From an uncultured bacterium (GTDB lineage Bacteria > Bacillota_I > Bacilli_A > Acholeplasmatales > Anaeroplasmataceae): a stretch of DNA of 47,707 nt. The position numbers were made by a program, and so were the translations under genes. Shown here piece by piece: positions 6,262 to 18,937 of the stretch. Where the stretch lies: NCBI GenBank assembly GCA_949291115.1, contig CASETY010000010.1, positions 1 to 47,707 on the forward strand, in the 5' to 3' direction. A model generated the notes under the pieces. That model ran no database searches, was not told where the DNA came from, and saw only the letters and a program-made list of their open reading frames with translations. Position 1 is the first letter of the stretch. The number at the start of each line of letters is the position of its first letter.

Positions 6262-6813
6262 TTAATCTAAATCTTTTATTTTAGCATCTAAAACATTATC
6301 TAAATTACGTTCTTTTTTATAAACTAGATAAGCATTAATTAAATTATAGAAAGCAAATAAAATAATTAAAGAACCAGCAACATATCTTAAATATTTTAAG
6401 ACATCTTCTAAACCACATAAAAAGATAATTACACCTATAGCCATAATGAAGATTTCATCTTTAAATGTACTTAATTTATTTTCACTCAATATAATTCTTA
6501 CAAGTGGCAAAATTAGCAAAAACACTAAAGTAACACTAGATATAACAATGCCAGAAAAGAAAGTTAAACAAACACCAAGCAATAAATAAATTGAACCGCT
6601 AATTAAATTGAATCTACCTATTACACTATTTTTAGCATTCATATTAACTAATAAGCGTAAGACACCAATAATAATTAACATTATTCCAAACATGATTAAA
6701 AAAAATCTAACTGCATTTTCAAGAGGTATGAAAAAGCAAAGAATTCCGGCAACAATTTGCAGCAGAGCATAAATTAATGATTTTTTAAACTCTTGTTTAT
6801 AATTTTGTTTCAA
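6262..6813 (-). CDS. DUF308/HdeD-like membrane protein
   Basis: 183 aa with about six hydrophobic helices in pairs, including GIMLIIIGVLRLL and SGSIYLLLGVCLTFF, the repeating small-loop pattern of the DUF308 (HdeD-like) family. The start is a TTG at 6813 inside the 3' end of the GH28 gene, with GGAG 9 nt upstream, so it overlaps that gene by 17 nt and is likely coupled to it. The function of the family in Gram-positive bacteria is unclear. It ends with a charged tail (KIKDLD). Confidence 0.7.
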   Translation of the reverse strand: MKQNYKQEFKKSLIYALLQIVAGILCFFIPLENAVRFFLIMFGIMLIIIGVLRLLVNMNAKNSVIGRFNLISGSIYLLLGVCLTFFSGIVISSVTLVFLLILPLVRIILSENKLSTFKDEIFIMAIGVIIFLCGLEDVLKYLRYVAGSLIILFAFYNLINAYLVYKKERNLDNVLDAKIKDLD

Positions 6814-12527: not shown

Positions 12528-14036
12528 ATGCTTTACGTAAAAATTGGCGATAAAGATAACGTGGCAATTGCCATTAAAGATTTACCTAAAGGCACTGATT
12601 GCGGTAATGGAGTAGTTACTATTGATGATATTCCCCAAGCTCACAAATTAGCTTTAGTAGATATCCCAAAAGGTAAAGAAGTTATTCGTTATAATGTCGT
12701 TTTAGGTTATGCCAAAAATGATATTAAAAAAGGCGAATGGATCAATGAATTTAAATTAGACTTACCTACTCCTCCTTCTTTAGATAATATGGTTTATGGC
12801 ACTAATTTAAATTATCCACTACCAGATCCGATTAGAACTACTTTTATGGGTTATGAAGTAGAAAATAATCCTTATGCTGGTATTCGTAATATTTTAGCTA
12901 TTCATACTACTGTTCAATGTGTAACTGGTATTTTAAATGTCGCTATCAAAAAAATTAAACAAGAATTATTACCAAAATATAAAAATGTTGATGACGTTGT
13001 AGCTATCAACCATGCTTATGGTTGCGGTGTTGCTATCAACGCTAAAGAAGCTAAGGTACCAATTAGAATTTTACAAAATCTAATTTATAACCCTAACTTT
13101 GGTGGAGAAGTTATGGTACTTAGCTTAGGTTGTGAAAAACTAAGTGTTGATAAATTATTACCTAAAGAATATATTAATGATGAAAATGTCATTGTTTTAC
13201 AAGACAAAAAAGGCTTTAAAGACATGATGACAAGCATATTAGAAATGGCTGATAAAAAGCTACAAAAGTTAAATAAAAGAACAAGAAAAGAACTTCCGCT
13301 TTCTAAACTTTGCATCGGTATGCAATGTGGTGGTTCTGATGCTTTTAGTGGTGTTTCAGCCAATCCATCTGCTGGTTATGCTTCTGATATGCTAGTAAAA
13401 GCTGGGGCGACTGTTATGTTTTCAGAAGTTACTGAAGTTAGAGATGGTGTTCATTATATCGCTGAAAGAACAGTTGATAAATCTGTTTGCGATAAATTGG
13501 CCAAGGAAATGAAATGGTATGATAATTACTTACTAGAAGGTGAGGTTGACCGTAGCGCTAACCCTACACCTGGCAATAAAAAAGGTGGTTTATCCAATAT
13601 TGTTGAAAAGGCGATGGGTTCAATTGCTAAATCTGGACACGCACCAATTTCTGAAGTATTATCACCTGGCGAAAGGCCTACTAAACATGGCTTAATTTAT
13701 GCAGCCACTCCTGCTTCTGACATTGTTTGTGGTCCATGTCAATTAGCTAGTGGCATTACCTTACAAGTCTTTATGACTGGTAGAGGTACTCCTTATAACT
13801 TAGCTGCTGCCCCTGTTATTAAAGTTTGTTCACGAAATGAACTTAAAAACATGTGGGATGATTTAATTGATATTAATGCCGGACCAGTTGCTACTGGCGA
13901 AAAGACAATTAAAGAAGTTGGTACGGAACTATTTAATTATATTTTAGATGTCGCTTCTGGTAAGAAAAAATCAAAAGCTGAAGAATATGAGTTAGCTAAC
14001 GATTTTTGTATCTTCAACCCAGCGCCAATAACCTAG
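12528..14036 (+). CDS. garD: Galactarate dehydratase
   Basis: 502 aa, similar to E. coli GarD (523 aa) along its whole length. Recognisable blocks: N-terminal SAF-like domain with VALVDIPKGKEVIRYNVVLG-type sequence, LNHAYGCGVAIN-like INHAYGCGVAIN (about 163-174), NPNFGGEVMVLSLGCEK, GMQCGGSDAFSGVSANP, SEVTEVRDG, DRSANPTPGNKKGGL and the C-terminal FNPAPIT. Metal-dependent dehydration of galactarate to 5-keto-4-deoxy-D-glucarate, first step of the pathway. An N-terminal stretch that in GarD/UxaA proteins usually reads like DGSVGTKN is here NPYAGIRN. Follows garK with a GGAGAT ribosome site. Confidence 0.93.
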   Translation: MLYVKIGDKDNVAIAIKDLPKGTDCGNGVVTIDDIPQAHKLALVDIPKGKEVIRYNVVLGYAKNDIKKGEWINEFKLDLPTPPSLDNMVYGTNLNYPLPDPIRTTFMGYEVENNPYAGIRNILAIHTTVQCVTGILNVAIKKIKQELLPKYKNVDDVVAINHAYGCGVAINAKEAKVPIRILQNLIYNPNFGGEVMVLSLGCEKLSVDKLLPKEYINDENVIVLQDKKGFKDMMTSILEMADKKLQKLNKRTRKELPLSKLCIGMQCGGSDAFSGVSANPSAGYASDMLVKAGATVMFSEVTEVRDGVHYIAERTVDKSVCDKLAKEMKWYDNYLLEGEVDRSANPTPGNKKGGLSNIVEKAMGSIAKSGHAPISEVLSPGERPTKHGLIYAATPASDIVCGPCQLASGITLQVFMTGRGTPYNLAAAPVIKVCSRNELKNMWDDLIDINAGPVATGEKTIKEVGTELFNYILDVASGKKKSKAEEYELANDFCIFNPAPIT

Positions 14037-14060
14037 AATATAAAGATTCTTTAACTAAAA

Positions 14061-14097
14061 ACAAGGTGTAGACAAAAAAACTACACCCTGTTTTTTA
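14061..14097 (+). terminator. Terminator of the galactarate operon
   Basis: ACAAGGTGTAG (14061-14071) pairs with CTACACCCTGT (14081-14091), one mismatch, followed by TTTTTTATTT. It lies 25 bp after the garD stop. Confidence 0.88.
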
Positions 14098-14108
14098 TTT
14101 ATATTATC

Positions 14109-14648
14109 TTAATTTTTACCTAATAACCAATCTAATGCGTTTGCTCTTCTTATTCCATTATAATTAGCTTCAGGATCATCATCTAATGTTAAAATAAATT
14201 TTTGATAATGATCATTAATTTTTTCTAATGGTGTTATTTCTCTTTCTAAAGTCTTGTTATCTCTAACAGTAGCTGCCGCTTGAAAATAATATACATTATT
14301 ATCTAACATGGCTACAAAATCAACTTCTAAATCATTTATTTTGCCTATATACACTTTATATCCTCGTCTAATCAGTTCTAAATATATTACATTTTCTAAT
14401 GTGTGACCTACATCATACACTCTAGTTCCTAATAAGGCATATTTTAAAACCACATCTACAATGTAGTATTTTTTATTATTAAAATTTCCCTTTGGACTAG
14501 CAACTAAAAACTCGCTATTAGAATTATATTTACTTGTCCATGTTTTACCACACCACTTTGGTCCTTCAATCAAAATAGCACCAAATATTTTTAGATATTC
14601 TTTAATTTTATTATCGATAATTCTACTTTTATATTCTAAAACATTCAT
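14109..14648 (-). pseudogene. Internally deleted DUF4143 ATPase (AAA_14 type)
   Basis: 179 aa. The first 45 residues are the start of an AAA_14/DUF4143 ATPase with an intact P-loop, GPKWCGKTW. After SNSE the protein jumps straight to the C-terminal DUF4143 part (VVDVVLKYALLGTR, ENVIYLELIRRGY, VDFVAMLDNN). Full proteins have about 430 aa, so roughly 240 residues, including Walker B, the sensor and the winged helix, are missing while the frame is kept. The N-terminal EGPKWCGKTWT type differs from the intact gene at 16738, so they are paralogues rather than copies. Probably non-functional. Confidence 0.8.
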
Positions 14649-14675
14649 TTTGTAATCATATATATATTACTATGT

Positions 14676-14767
14676 TCCGAGAGTTTTCTATTTTTCAATC
14701 CGATAGATTTTTATTTTTTATTCCGAGAGTTTTCTATTTTTTAATCCGACAGTTTTTTGGATTTTCC
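14676..14767. repeat. Four 23-bp tandem repeats starting TCCGA
   Basis: Units at 14676-14698, 14699-14721, 14722-14744 and 14745-14767, each exactly 23 bp and each beginning TCCGA followed by G/T/C-AG and a T-rich tract. Units 1 and 3 are nearly identical (TCCGAGAGTTTTCTATTTTT); units 2 and 4 have drifted. In the sense of the broken ATPase gene the units read GAAAACTCTCGGA and end about 28 bp before its ATG, a position for a promoter/operator. Confidence 0.85.
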
Positions 14768-14792
14768 AACTTTACTCTTTTAGTAAATAAAA

Positions 14793-14960
14793 TTAAATAT
14801 TATTCTCTTTATCAATATATATTTGTATATTATCTTTTCCTAACTCTTTGAATGCTTGAATAACTATATTAGCAATATAAGAAAACGAATTTGTCTCTTT
14901 TAAAGTCGCATGTTTAAAGAAAAGAATATTTTCTTCATACTCAGATAAACTAAATAACAT
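14793..14960 (-). CDS. Hypothetical 55-aa reading frame, possible gene remnant
   Basis: ATG at 14960, immediately preceded by TAG, without a good ribosome site. The product (MLFSLSEYEENILFFKHATL and on) is mixed hydrophobic/charged and looks protein-like, ending YIDKENNI. No family recognised; its place in a decayed island suggests a fragment. Confidence 0.25.
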   Translation of the reverse strand: MLFSLSEYEENILFFKHATLKETNSFSYIANIVIQAFKELGKDNIQIYIDKENNI

Positions 14961-15040
14961 CTAAGACTATGACAAATTCCAAATCAAAGTTTTATTTTTT
15001 GCTTATTTATTACTTGAAAAGATAACATTTCTATCTATTC

Positions 15041-15172
15041 TTAAAAAATTCCTTTGTTATATCTTATTTGGGCATATAACATAAGTATTATACCAATAAT
15101 TAGTCCAACAACGATAATATAATCTATATTTTCATTTTTATAAAAAATTTTTATAACGCCTGTAACTAGCAA
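15041..15172 (-). pseudogene. Fragment of a small membrane protein
   Basis: Open frame of about 43 codons with only non-ATG starts (TTG at 15172). It contains a hydrophobic helix (YIIVVGLIIGIILMLYAQI) after a basic segment and ends NKGIF. It may be the tail of a two-helix membrane protein lost by decay. No other feature is visible in 14961-15310. Confidence 0.25.
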
Positions 15173-15309
15173 AGTGTTAAAAATATTCTTAATTTTTCTA
15201 ATTCACGAATTGTAACATTTAGTATTATTTTATAAATAATTTAGTCGATGTTCCAAAATAATTCTATCTAACTTTCCATCTAATTAAAGATATCTTTTGG
15301 TAATGTAGC

Positions 15310-16265
15310 TAAGAATAAACCTCCTACAAAACATCGAGTTTATCTAATGCAACAGTCAATAGTAAATAGAAATATTGAAGGACCCAATGTTTATATAGTG
15401 CAAACCACTATAAGCAATGTTCAAGTAATCCGAAATTGAAGATAAACCTAGAACAATAAATTGTAATTATTGATGGTTGAAAATAAATGGGATATTCTTG
15501 AATAAATTTACAAATAGAAGGAGGAGCAGCAAATGAGATTAATAGATGAAATACTTAGCAAGGAAAATATCGATAGTGTAATTAAAAGAGTCAAAACTAA
15601 TAAAGGTTGCGCCGGCATTGATAAGATGAAGGTCGATAAACTTGAAGACCATTTTAAGATTAATGGAAAACCAATTATAAACTCAATATTAGAAGGGACA
15701 TATAAACCACAACTAGTAAAAAGAGTATACATTCCAAAACCAAATGGTAAACAAAGACCTTTAGGAATACCAACGGCAACTGATAGAGTAATACAACAAG
15801 CAATTGGGCAAAAATTAAGTGAAATATACGAACCATATTTCAGTGATTCAAGTTGTGGTTTTAGACCAAATAGAGATTGTCATTTGGCAATGTCTAAAGT
15901 TTTAAATTACCTAAATGAAGGTTATGAGTGGATAGTAGACTTAGATATCGAGAAATACTTTGATACAATTAATCATGATAAATTAATCTCAACACTTAGA
16001 GAACGAGTTAATGATTCATTGACCCTAAGTCTAATTAGAAAGTTCCTTAGAGTAGGAATAATTGAAAATGGTTTGGTAAGTAGTAATACAAAAGGTATGC
16101 CACAAGGTGGTCCATTAAGTCCAATCCTAAGCAATATCTACCTTGATAAATTTGATAAAGAACTAGAACAAAGAGGTCTCAAATTTGTTAGATATGCAGA
16201 TAATTGTAATATATTTGTCAAAAGTGAACTAGCAGCAGATAGGGTTATAAAATCAGTGGTAATGT
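15310..16265 (+). mobile_element. Truncated group II intron
   Basis: The RT reading frame (15533-16279) is preceded by about 220 nt of gene-free sequence with intron-like character: a GACCCAATG segment and the hairpin TATAGTG-CAAAC-CACTATA (15394-15412), a GTAATCCGAA stretch, then AGGAGG and the RT ATG. The exact 5' end was not found (no GTGYG start seen). On the right, intron similarity stops near 16260, before the maturase domain, and domains V/VI are absent. Limits are approximate. Confidence 0.6.
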
Positions 16266-16279
16266 CAAATATTCTATGA
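15533..16279 (+). pseudogene. Group II intron reverse transcriptase, truncated
   Basis: 248 aa of the RT-finger/palm part of an intron-encoded protein: start MRLIDEILS, GCAGIDKMKVD, RVYIPKPNGKQRPLGIPT (RT1-2), SCGFRPNRDCHLA (RT2a/3), DLDIEKYFDTINHD (RT3, first catalytic Asp), GMPQGGPLSPILSNIYLD (RT4). The RT5 active site reads YADN at 221-224 instead of YADD. Thumb, maturase and endonuclease domains are missing; the frame runs into unrelated sequence after IKSVV. It has a good ribosome site (AGGAGG, 6-7 nt). Enzymatically dead by two independent lesions. Confidence 0.85.
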
Positions 16280-16283
16280 AAAA

Positions 16284-16472
16284 TTGACATTTAATGATTG
16301 TTATATTAGTATATTTGAACTACTTGGATTATCTATTGAAGATCACTTCTCTAGTAATGAAGGTGAAATATTAAATATGTATTATAACAACATGAACTTT
16401 AGACATCTAATTGATAGATATCGTAGTTATGAAACATTTAGAAATGAACTTGATAAAGTGTTAGATTCATAG
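16284..16472 (+). pseudogene. C-terminal fragment of an unknown protein
   Basis: Frame open from a TAA near 16260, only a TTG at 16284 as formal start. Sequence IFELLGLSIEDHFSSNEGEI then MYYNNMNFRHLIDRY and FRNELDKVLDS; polar, probably helical. The open frame begins exactly where the RT similarity stops, so it is the tail of another gene joined at that point by a deletion or insertion. Family not recognised. Its stop codon lies inside the terminator hairpin at 16469. Confidence 0.45.
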
Positions 16473-16490
16473 GCTTAAATGCCTATTTTT
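16469..16490 (+). terminator. Terminator after the fragment gene
   Basis: ATAGGC-TTAAAT-GCCTAT followed by TTTTAT. The TAG stop of the preceding fragment is part of the stem. Confidence 0.65.
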
Positions 16491-16598
16491 ATGTCACAAG
16501 ATATTTTCTGGGTTAACCCTTAAAACACCTTGCGAAAAATTATAATTTTTAAATCATAAAAGTTTTTATTTTGTAAATAATAAATATATATACTATTT

Positions 16599-16704
16599 TT
16601 ATCACGAAAACTATCTAACAATTTAAACATTATCGGAATACAAAAGCCAAATTTATTGACTATTTACATATTAAGTGGTATACTTATTACGAAAAGTGTC
16701 TAAC
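16599..16704. repeat. Direct repeat pair flanking the ATPase promoter
   Basis: Two 21-bp copies, 16599-16619 and 16684-16704, 18 of 21 positions equal, core ACGAAAANTNTCTAAC. They lie 85 bp apart. The second begins on the last base of the -10 box and covers the expected start of transcription; the first is upstream of the -35. This is an operator-like arrangement. Confidence 0.6.
16656..16684 (+). promoter_or_regulatory. Promoter of the intact DUF4143 ATPase
   Basis: -35 TTGACT (16656-16661), 17-nt spacer, -10 TATACT (16679-16684). Start expected near 16691, inside the second direct repeat; the gene's TTGGAGG ribosome site follows at about 16724-16730. Confidence 0.65.
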
Positions 16705-16737
16705 TTTTATAATTATTTCGTATTGGAGGTTAAAACA

Positions 16738-17991
16738 ATGATTGTCAAACGTGAAGTATATTTGCAAATGTTAATTGATAGAATGAACAATGGTGCCATC
16801 AAAGTAATCACTGGTTTAAGACGTTCGGGAAAATCAATACTTCTTTTTAATATTTTTTATGACTATTTATTATCGATAGGTACTAATCCTAATAATATTA
16901 TCAAAATAGACCTTGATTCAGAACAATTTGAAGATCTACTCGATTACAAAAAACTTGGACAATACATTCGTTCTAAAATAAATGAAACAGAAAAGTTTTA
17001 TATATTCTTAGATGAAGTTCAATTTTGTAAAAACTTTGAGAAAGTTTTAAATGGATTAAATAGATATGAAAATCTAGACATATATGTTACTGGATCTAAC
17101 TCTAAATTTTTATCAACAGATATTTTAACTGAATTTAGAGGTAGAGGTGATGAAATTAGAGTTTACCCTCTATCATTTAGTGAATACTACTCAGCATTGA
17201 CTAATGTGGAATTTAGTGTTGCATTCAATGATTATCTAATATATGGTGGTTTACCTAGAATGTTAGCACTAAAAACAGAACAACAAAAATCTAAATATTT
17301 AACTGATTTATTTAAAGAAACTTATCTAAAAGACATTGTAGATAGAAACCATTTAAGAGGCGAAGAAACATTATATAAATTAGTTGATATACTAGCTTCT
17401 TCTGTTGGCTCTTTAACTTCACCTAACAAACTTTCAAAAACTGCAAGTAGTGTTTTAGGTAAAAGCATTTCTGATAAAACAATCCGTACATACATTGACC
17501 ACTTAAAAAATGCATTTTTAATTAATGAAGCTCAACGCTTTGATATAAAAGGTAAACAATACCTTTCTTCATTACAAAAAATTTATTATGCAGATTTAGG
17601 ATTAAGAAATGCTAGACTTAACTTTAGACAAAACGAACAACCTCACTTAATGGAAAATCTAATTTACAATGAATTACTATATAGAGGTTATAACGTTGAT
17701 GTAGGCATTGTAGAAATCAATGAAAAAATAAATGGTAAATATACTCAAAAACAAATTGAAGTTGATTTTGTTTGTAATCAAGGTAGCAAGCGTTACTACA
17801 TTCAATCAGCATATGCCTTACCAACAGAAAGCAAAACTAATAAAGAATTAAGACCATTACTTAATGTTAATGATTTCTTCAAAAAGATTGTAATAGTTAG
17901 AGAAGATATTAAACCTTATTCTAATGAACAAGGTATCACAATCATGGGAATTAGATATTTCCTTTTAAATAACAATAGTTTAGAATTCTAA
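16738..17991 (+). CDS. DUF4143 (AAA_14) ATP-binding protein
   Basis: 417 aa from the ATG at 16738, chosen because GGAGG lies 7 nt upstream; the frame continues to 16675 without support. Order of parts: P-loop GLRRSGKS (near 25-32), Walker B FLDEVQ (near 92-97), sensor TGSNSKFL, Arg-rich FRGRGDEIRVYPLS, a winged-helix region (LVDILASSVGS, ISDKTIRTYIDHL) and the C-terminal DUF4143 domain with EVDFV and YYIQSAYAL, a pattern like a restriction-nuclease fold core. These ATPases are common in gut bacteria in many copies; their role is not established. Complete and probably expressed, unlike the paralogue at 14109. Confidence 0.9.
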   Translation: MIVKREVYLQMLIDRMNNGAIKVITGLRRSGKSILLFNIFYDYLLSIGTNPNNIIKIDLDSEQFEDLLDYKKLGQYIRSKINETEKFYIFLDEVQFCKNFEKVLNGLNRYENLDIYVTGSNSKFLSTDILTEFRGRGDEIRVYPLSFSEYYSALTNVEFSVAFNDYLIYGGLPRMLALKTEQQKSKYLTDLFKETYLKDIVDRNHLRGEETLYKLVDILASSVGSLTSPNKLSKTASSVLGKSISDKTIRTYIDHLKNAFLINEAQRFDIKGKQYLSSLQKIYYADLGLRNARLNFRQNEQPHLMENLIYNELLYRGYNVDVGIVEINEKINGKYTQKQIEVDFVCNQGSKRYYIQSAYALPTESKTNKELRPLLNVNDFFKKIVIVREDIKPYSNEQGITIMGIRYFLLNNNSLEF

Positions 17992-17994
17992 TTG

Positions 17995-18025
17995 ACTCAG
18001 TTTATCAAAGCTGGGTTTTCTTTTT
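17995..18025 (+). terminator. Terminator of the ATPase gene
   Basis: ACTCAG (17995-18000) pairs with CTGGGT (18011-18016, one G-T pair), then TTTCTTTTT. Starts 4 bp after the stop. A further perfect hairpin, AACTTGG-TAT-CCAAGTT (18031-18047), follows without a T-run. Confidence 0.6.
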
Positions 18026-18169
18026 GCTCGAACTTGGTATCCAAGTTGCGAAACACCGAAAAACTATGTTTTAGTTTTTCTTATCTTGTTAAGTAAATAA
18101 TAGCTACATTTCCATTTCACTATCATTTCTTAAGTTTCCATCATGATCAATAATGCCTTCTTCTCCTAA

Positions 18170-18937
18170 TTAAATAATCTTAACTAAATCCTTGCACATT
18201 TCTATAAGAGAATATCTTATACTTTTTCTATCTCGCCAATTTCTTTTATCCCATACTTCTTGAGATACGTCATCGCCAGCATAAATAATTGCTCCATATT
18301 TTATATTTCTGAATTGAGCCACTGCAATACAACCTGATTGTTCCATTTCAACAATTTTGGCTCCTTCTTCTTTTCTTACCATAATCTTATCTCTTGTTTC
18401 TCTATAAAATGCATCAGTAGTCCATGTTAATCCTTCAATATAAGGTATATTATTTTCATTCAAATATGAGCAAATAATATTTCTCACATCTTCTTGAGAA
18501 TAAATAATTCTAGATGGTTTCACATAATGGTAAGAAAATCCTTCATCCCTAATAGAACCTTTTACAACTAGCAATTCACCTACTTTTATGTCTTTATCTA
18601 AAACTCCACCGCCACCGCAAAACATTACTTCAGAAATGCCAATTCCAGTTAGTTCATCCATATATCCTGCACAAGCAGGACAACCTATTGTTCCATGCAT
18701 AAGCAAAACATCTTCATCAATAAATTTATATAAAACTAAGTCGTTTTCTCCGCTAATTGTTAAGTACTCTTTTATTTTTCCATCATCTAATAACATATTA
18801 ACTGCTTCTTTAAAAAATGTAATAATCAATTTTTTAATTGGTAAAACACCATATTTCTTTTGAAGAAAATATGGATTAATTAAAGCTTCTTTATTATCAT
18901 CGAACTCCAATATAGGGTAATCCTTGTTTTTTAGCAT
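18170..18937 (-). CDS. Nucleoside phosphorylase family protein
   Basis: 255 aa from the ATG at 18937 (AAAGGATG upstream, 17 nt after the HIT gene stop); the frame could start at 18970 but would overlap that gene. PNP/UDP phosphorylase fold: LMHGTIGCPACAGYMDEL, Gly-rich MFCGGGGVLDKDI, GSIRDEGFSYHYV as in uridine-phosphorylase-like enzymes, and the ribose-binding KIVEMEQSG (the MExE-type motif). It would split a nucleoside with phosphate into base and ribose-1-phosphate. The substrate is unclear; a late YAGDDVSQEVWD segment fits the family. Forms an operon with the HIT protein. Confidence 0.82.
   Translation of the reverse strand: MLKNKDYPILEFDDNKEALINPYFLQKKYGVLPIKKLIITFFKEAVNMLLDDGKIKEYLTISGENDLVLYKFIDEDVLLMHGTIGCPACAGYMDELTGIGISEVMFCGGGGVLDKDIKVGELLVVKGSIRDEGFSYHYVKPSRIIYSQEDVRNIICSYLNENNIPYIEGLTWTTDAFYRETRDKIMVRKEEGAKIVEMEQSGCIAVAQFRNIKYGAIIYAGDDVSQEVWDKRNWRDRKSIRYSLIEMCKDLVKII

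Follow-up and report, generated by a model that had tools for sequence, protein, structure and literature searches.

We examined a tandem repeat of 23 base pairs (bp) in contig CASETY010000010.1, from an uncultured bacterium of the Anaeroplasmataceae. The whole stretch of 47,707 nucleotides that was analysed is called the window here. The repeat lies in front of a broken ATPase gene of the DUF4143 family. It belongs to a wider pattern seen in both bacteria and archaea, where a row of short repeats precedes DUF4143 genes. The spacing within these arrays follows the protein lineage rather than the host. We argue that the array is probably an autogenous operator. It would be read by the gene's own product, a predicted AAA+/winged-helix/PD-(D/E)XK protein. 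The case for this is built on comparisons of genes and proteins.

The focal array consists of four units, each headed by TCCGA, that follow one another head-to-tail with no spacers in a phase of exactly 23 bp (Table 1). It begins 27 bp upstream of the ATG of a minus-strand open reading frame (ORF). Tandem Repeats Finder reports it at 14676-14756 with period 23, 3.5 copies, 82% matches and a score of 120, which is the top score in the whole window. In the 160 bp before the ATG at 14648 (minus strand), the repeat score is 39 at lag 23 (p = 0.001, z = 14.5 against 1000 dinucleotide shuffles of the same 160 bp). The first-pass annotation had described four spacer-free TCCGA units in an exact array in front of a broken ATPase gene. 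The coordinates, Tandem Repeats Finder and the shuffle test confirm the four units and the 23-bp period, and the gene is indeed broken, since its ORF is a remnant of two family members. The word exact holds for the period and not for the units, which are not identical; the fourth diverges past its first half. A degenerate 22-base unit pattern (at most 3 mismatches) matches only units 1-3 in the window, where chance predicts 0.10 matches. An exact 14-base head pattern occurs 3 times in the entire assembly, always inside this array. The units abut at 23 bp without unique spacers, so this is not a CRISPR (clustered regularly interspaced short palindromic repeats) array. An Rfam element is ruled out as well, with zero Rfam matches in 13900-18200.

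The distribution of such repeats was examined by scoring, for each gene, the best ungapped direct repeat in the 160 bp upstream against dinucleotide shuffles, with significance at p<0.01. Start codons in these surveys are a rule-based guess. The genus survey covers 45 genes from 8 genomes. ORFs whose Walker motifs differ were removed by hand. Truncated ORFs in L077 and L084 were also dropped, and candidates from L079, L080 and L089 failed the ORF and Walker-A filter. Upstream repeats are significant in 26 of the 45, compared to 1/44 downstream of the same family and 2/109 upstream of other genes, the focal array being one of these two. The cross-phylum survey started from 80 named loci chosen by protein similarity alone; L168 lacks an intact ORF and L125 has insufficient upstream sequence, which leaves 78. 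Here 51/78 genes have significant upstream repeats, with 6/76 downstream and 16/249 at other genes. Twelve of those 249 controls turned out to be family members by hidden Markov model, and removing them gives 9/237. None of the nine has the family period (31-33 or 64-66). Only one of the 7 downstream repeats in both surveys has a 33-bp lag, and this scarcity on the downstream side rules out transposon ends. The first-pass annotation proposed collecting the upstream regions of DUF4143 genes, and asked whether arrays are equally frequent away from them. They are not.

A third set takes five genomes behind the named loci. They were selected for many copies and only part of their copies are included. 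Seven of 60 loci were dropped: L283 is short, L294, L295, L299, L309 and L318 have no chosen start, and L267 has no Walker A. The remaining 53 genes, 5 of which repeat cross-phylum loci, have upstream repeats in 42 cases. Two of the genomes are archaea, and the split is 18/19 in the Methanomassiliicoccales, 4/7 in Methanocorpusculum, 12/18 in a gammaproteobacterium, 5/5 in Verrucomicrobia and 3/4 in Bacteroidetes. The search can also be turned around. The relative G007 has 34 direct-repeat arrays of score at least 20 in 779,316 bases. Three of them are intergenic with a lag of 31-35, and every one is directly upstream of a DUF4143 ORF. Two further family ORFs have arrays of lag 23 and lag 60, so 5 of its 14 family ORFs have an array. 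In the genus, cross-phylum and G007 surveys alike the repeats are restricted to the promoter side of family genes.

The 51 significant cross-phylum arrays fall at lag 31-33 (46) or 64-66 (5), and 15 of the 27 genes that miss p<0.01 still have their best lag at 31-33. Genomes richer in G+C display the same period. Cultured commensals have family genes too, among them Desulfovibrio piger ATCC 29098 (L145) and Segatella copri DSM 18205, whose LK433_RS14040 has a clean 33-bp array. In a phylogeny of 170 proteins, 1 change separates the 16 rows of the 23-bp class from the 92 rows of the 33-bp class, a count that takes in L319, which has a 22-bp repeat, a long branch and an uncertain placement. Shuffling the classes 500 times gives a mean of 15.1 changes and a minimum of 12. 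The 23-bp clade has a Shimodaira-Hasegawa-like approximate likelihood ratio test (SH-aLRT) support of 100. Fifteen of its 16 rows are significant and the sixteenth has lag 23 at p = 0.017. It unites the window's genus with archaea and Verrucomicrobia. The same holds within a single host. The archaeon G055 has 16 rows, split 10 to 6 between the two classes, with 1 change against 5.1 when shuffled. Since the class changes once on the tree and once within G055, the spacing goes with the protein rather than with the host. The 23-bp and 33-bp spacings are about one helical turn apart.

DUF4143 copy numbers can be very high. G055 (the archaeon of L132) has 32 matches in about 1.5 Mb and G062 (the gammaproteobacterium of L179) has 40 in about 2.1 Mb. 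Most of the copies tested in these two genomes have their own distinct array.

The sequence of the units is another line of reasoning. Among the 92 arrays of the 33-bp class, proteins of higher identity have more similar unit cores, far more so on the sense strand than on the antisense. In a sliding comparison along the protein, this correlation is highest over residues 211-330 (r about 0.24). The partial correlation of unit similarity with the winged helix given the ATPase is 0.186 (p 0.003), and with the ATPase given the winged helix it is 0.001 (p 0.53). It is 0.185 (p 0.003) for the winged helix given the nuclease and 0.033 (p 0.17) for the nuclease given the winged helix. This pattern persists in pairs below 45% identity. 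The units have a loose oriented core, in which an A-tract precedes TGTG or GTG-like letters, with flanks that are gene-specific. The conserved words are in the sense orientation in 35 arrays and antisense in 6. TCCGA is specific to the focal gene, so it cannot be kept as the motif of the family. The first-pass suggestion that such arrays are binding sites or targets of the DUF4143 family is supported all the same. The association stands, and so do the clade-bound period and the winged-helix-linked unit sequence, both of which binding by the protein would predict; binding itself is a prediction from these patterns.

The sites do not appear to regulate other genes. The two most specific cores in G007 (L212 and L205) match only their own arrays in its 779 kb, with no excess elsewhere. 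Other cores have matches near their null means (L218 17 vs 13.6, L207 16 vs 11.7, L228 7 vs 3.2), so there is no clear excess of unit cores across that genome and the idea was rejected. It must be said that a copy of the L228 array core with 1 mismatch in 17 lies away from that gene, on the minus strand of L194 near 4326 (also G007). This near-exact core is a possible second target of the L228 protein.

The predicted structure of the protein is compatible with a DNA-reading role. We modelled the relative L073, not the window gene, with AlphaFold (predicted local distance difference test score, pLDDT, 89.6). Residues 1-335 match archaeal AAA+ winged-helix ATPases, with 2qen at Z 16.7 (4.1 A over 266 residues) and 2fna at Z 16.3, then STAND proteins and ORC2. 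A winged helix inside this match to 2qen, 2fna and ORC2 would supply the predicted DNA-binding domain. The C-terminal domain modelled alone (pLDDT 86.1) matches PD-(D/E)XK nucleases with moderate Z, namely Can2 (8.8) and McrC (8.5; 2.8 A, 102 residues), and also VRR_NUC and DdmD. An E-x-K is near-invariant in the family alignment. On the L073 model the family has a predicted PD-(D/E)XK nuclease domain. Searching the PDB by sequence with two single family proteins gave no match, and a profile search matched only the AAA+ core. A first scan of a viral collection with the window protein found no relative. PADLOC assigns DUF4143 proteins to PDC-S01, a family of bacteria and archaea in which a PD-(D/E)XK domain is attached to an ATPase. 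PMC12988326 traces PDC-S01 to a preprint by Payne et al. (2024). It calls these proteins phage-defence candidates and ranks them as the fourth most common prokaryotic defence system, with validation awaited (PMC12988326). DUF4143/PDC-S01 is thus a suspected anti-phage ATPase-nuclease and a candidate defence system.

Array, association, period, unit tracking and fold are computed patterns, and from them we infer binding, cooperativity, repression and benefit. Under the operator reading, protein subunits would bind the array units through their own winged-helix domain. Several copies would sit side by side, and the packing of subunits would fix the spacing at 23 bp in one clade and 32-33 bp in the main clade. 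The array would lie in or just upstream of the promoter, so that binding would control the gene's own transcription. The distance from the array end to the start codon is 0-97 bp, with a median of 32.5. We argue that repression is likelier than activation for two reasons: the product is a potential nuclease, and a repeat unit sits between the -35 and -10 elements in the genus members L075, L078 and L081. Repression would most likely hold a potentially harmful nuclease low until the protein is titrated or removed. The window gene would have decayed later, through an in-frame fusion with a second member that left the array and the N-terminus. The inverted repeats of the GxRR[CS]GKS clade and the upstream repeats of the sister family DUF234, both described below, suggest on small samples that self-directed operators with a geometry set by clade may be common to these AAA+ ATPases. 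A more ambitious version is rather unlikely as a whole, and we offer it tentatively. In it the private, clade-phased array of two or three helical turns would scaffold the AAA+ nuclease, set its expression and guard the protein, and mutually private pairs of array and winged helix would let dozens of paralogues live side by side in a cell with no cross-talk.

Several results weigh against an autogenous operator. A significant direct repeat is absent at 19/45 genus and 27/78 cross-phylum genes. The GxRR[CS]GKS clade, which holds the window's intact gene, has no regular tandem arrays. Direct repeats reach p<0.02 in 1/12 of its genes, and inverted repeats do so in 6/12 against 4/60 controls, which is a weak signal. 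Predicted promoters overlap the arrays in 44 of 62 cases and random placement expects 44.0. Array position alone is therefore no proof of an operator, and we do not use promoter overlap as evidence. The array is upstream of the predicted promoter in 17 of the 62, an arrangement that suits activation as well as repression. Finally, the Mantel correlations are modest in size. The unit-sequence effects are modest, yet they point to one domain, the winged helix, on which they converge.

Other explanations must be considered. The effector itself could use the array as a track for docking or nucleation, rather than mainly as a switch of transcription; there the AAA+ nuclease assembles in an inactive or primed state and is freed or converted by invading DNA or a phage protein. 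The widely varying distance to the start codon combined with rigid spacing inside arrays fits such a track, and so does a difference of about one helical turn between the two spacings. The fold relatives of the protein also include the oligomerising STAND proteins and ORC. A pure docking site has no need to be 5' of its gene, however, and the arrays are found only there, so we consider the track doubtful. Less probable still is that a separate host transcription factor binds the arrays. It gains some ground because binding by the ATPase is a prediction, and because RptR, as described in the accessible part of PMC12255303, is a precedent for a small regulator acting on direct repeats. Such a factor would not explain why the period follows the phylogeny of the ATPase in bacteria and archaea alike and is not the same for all paralogues of one archaeon, or why the unit sequence tracks the ATPase's own winged helix.

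We also think it improbable that the array is the end or target of a mobile unit of gene plus repeats, moved or homed by the ATPase-nuclease. A mobile unit would explain why a genome can have as many as 40 family copies, why many fragments lie close to insertion-sequence genes and a reverse transcriptase, and why copies occur on plasmids and phage-labelled contigs. It would not explain repeats that are one-sided, without matching copies at the 3' end, or the fixed orientation of the array towards the gene, and the two most specific cores show no excess elsewhere in the 779 kb. The suspicion that L073 and L075 had exchanged gene and array as a cassette was rejected; only one flank matched, and that flank is itself repeated sequence. 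The last alternative is that the array arose by chance or by replication slippage in upstream DNA that is rich in A+T. The window is indeed AT-rich, and a single array requires no function. However, this is already contradicted by the shuffle test on the focal array, by same-locus controls without arrays and by the persistence of the period at higher G+C, and we regard it as hardly credible.

The proposed autogenous operator can be compared to known systems. According to the accessible part of PMC12255303, RptR represses the promoter of an anti-phage defence island through three direct repeats. The likeness is that direct repeats in the promoter of anti-phage genes are bound by a repressing regulator. 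The difference is that RptR, a small and separate regulator, has a 6-bp palindromic site (PMC12255303). No such regulator was noticed at the PDC-S01 arrays, where the effector ATPase is itself the candidate binder, and the phase is a clade-specific 23 or 33 bp in bacteria and archaea. The PDC-S01 candidates of PADLOC and PMC12988326 are of the same protein family as the window's intact gene; the accessible text of that paper covers their prevalence and descent and has nothing about promoters or repeats. The archaeal proteins 2qen (PABY2304) and 2fna (SSO1545) and the STAND proteins share the predicted fold of residues 1-335, but the DUF4143 family adds the PD-(D/E)XK domain after it. The sister family DUF234 (PF03008) has upstream repeats too, direct or inverted at p<0.01 in 14/22 genes. 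Its geometry differs, with periods of mostly 15 or 28 bp plus palindromes. In L326-L354 the starts of the DUF234 ATPase genes are preceded by strong palindromes and by repeats with periods of 15 and 28 bp. We found no report of PDC-S01 upstream arrays in the open-access literature searched, and novelty is provisional since preprints and most subscription papers are outside that scope.

A very common suspected defence family gains a putative operator geometry conserved in bacteria and archaea, which predicts what the protein binds. This geometry could give a reporter that shows when the gene turns on, and the array could serve as an annotation signature of PDC-S01. The many natural pairs of a DNA-reading domain and its site would also help in decoding winged-helix specificity.

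Table 1. Features of the window discussed in the text (forward-strand positions).
Feature	Position	Strand	Basis
Chimeric remnant ORF, 179 amino acids	14109..14648	-	blastp to L081 and L089
Segment matching the L081 locus	14468..15171	-	blastn: 14468-14943 93.7%, 14941-15171 87.5%
Possible -10 element TAATAT, between array and ATG	14664..14669	-	By eye, consensus match only
Repeat unit 1, closest to the ATG of the minus-strand ORF	14676..14698		TCCGA head at 14676, Tandem Repeats Finder, degenerate pattern
Repeat unit 2	14699..14721		TCCGA head at 14699, Tandem Repeats Finder, degenerate pattern
Repeat unit 3	14722..14744		TCCGA head at 14722, Tandem Repeats Finder, degenerate pattern
Repeat unit 4, second half diverged	14745..14767		TCCGA head at 14745; Tandem Repeats Finder stops at 14756
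Apparently truncated ORF of a reverse transcriptase (RVT_1), lying between the two family genes	15533..16279	+	Pfam E 2e-36
Candidate operator copy 1 of intact gene, TTATCACGAAAACTATCTAAC	16599..16619	+	Direct repeat, lag 85
Promoter-like TTGACT-17 bp-TATACT of intact gene	16656..16684	+	By eye
Intact second family member, AAA_14 + DUF4143, GxRR[CS]GKS class	16675..17991	+	Pfam, PADLOC PDC-S01
Candidate operator copy 2 of intact gene, just past the -10 element	16684..16704	+	Direct repeat, lag 85

The broken gene behind the focal array is a chimera. Residues 1-65 of its ORF (about 14454-14648) are 91% identical to the N-terminus of L081 by blastp, an intact 424-residue ATPase of the 23-bp class from another species of the genus, where the same array precedes the intact gene. 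Residues 59-178 (about 14115-14474) are 77.5% identical by blastp to the C-terminus of L089, of the GxRRCGKS class. Walker A is retained, and most of the AAA+ and winged-helix regions are gone. Pfam finds only a partial DUF4143 under the cut-off. The ORF lacks the AAA_14 plus DUF4143 pair used to define membership, so it is counted as a remnant and not as a family member. The array locus of the window is the L081 locus, because the two segments in Table 1, the first with the array included, continue one another at high identity; about 500 bp of L081 are missing between them. A promoter scan of L081 finds the same -10 element and a TTGAAA -35 element at 17 bp, with one repeat core within the spacer. 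The window's counterpart of that -35 element looks degraded by eye. The in-frame fusion of the start and end of two members suggests that tandem family genes recombine and delete, and an assembly artefact is possible.

Further decayed DUF4143 fragments are present at L002 and L001, in the window's own genome, and point to active loss of DUF4143 genes. One of these fragments comes directly after a sequence which we take to resemble an IS21-type helper gene.

The intact member has AAA_14 (E 2.4e-33) and DUF4143 (E 1.8e-17) in Pfam, both over the cut-off, and PADLOC matches its residues 2-412 to the PDC-S01 model PDLC04787 (E 1.2e-117). Its likely start is the ATG at 16738. The pair of candidate operator copies in front of it is weak, with p = 0.035 only. 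The reverse-transcriptase ORF has a sequence that presumably resembles those of group II introns. Among the control matches, two copies of TGTTTCACGTGAAACA lie 70 bp apart in L122 before an ABC-F-like gene, upstream of the minus-strand gene start at 6491 (reverse-strand coordinate), and we take TGTTTCACGTGAAACA to be the ParB site parS.
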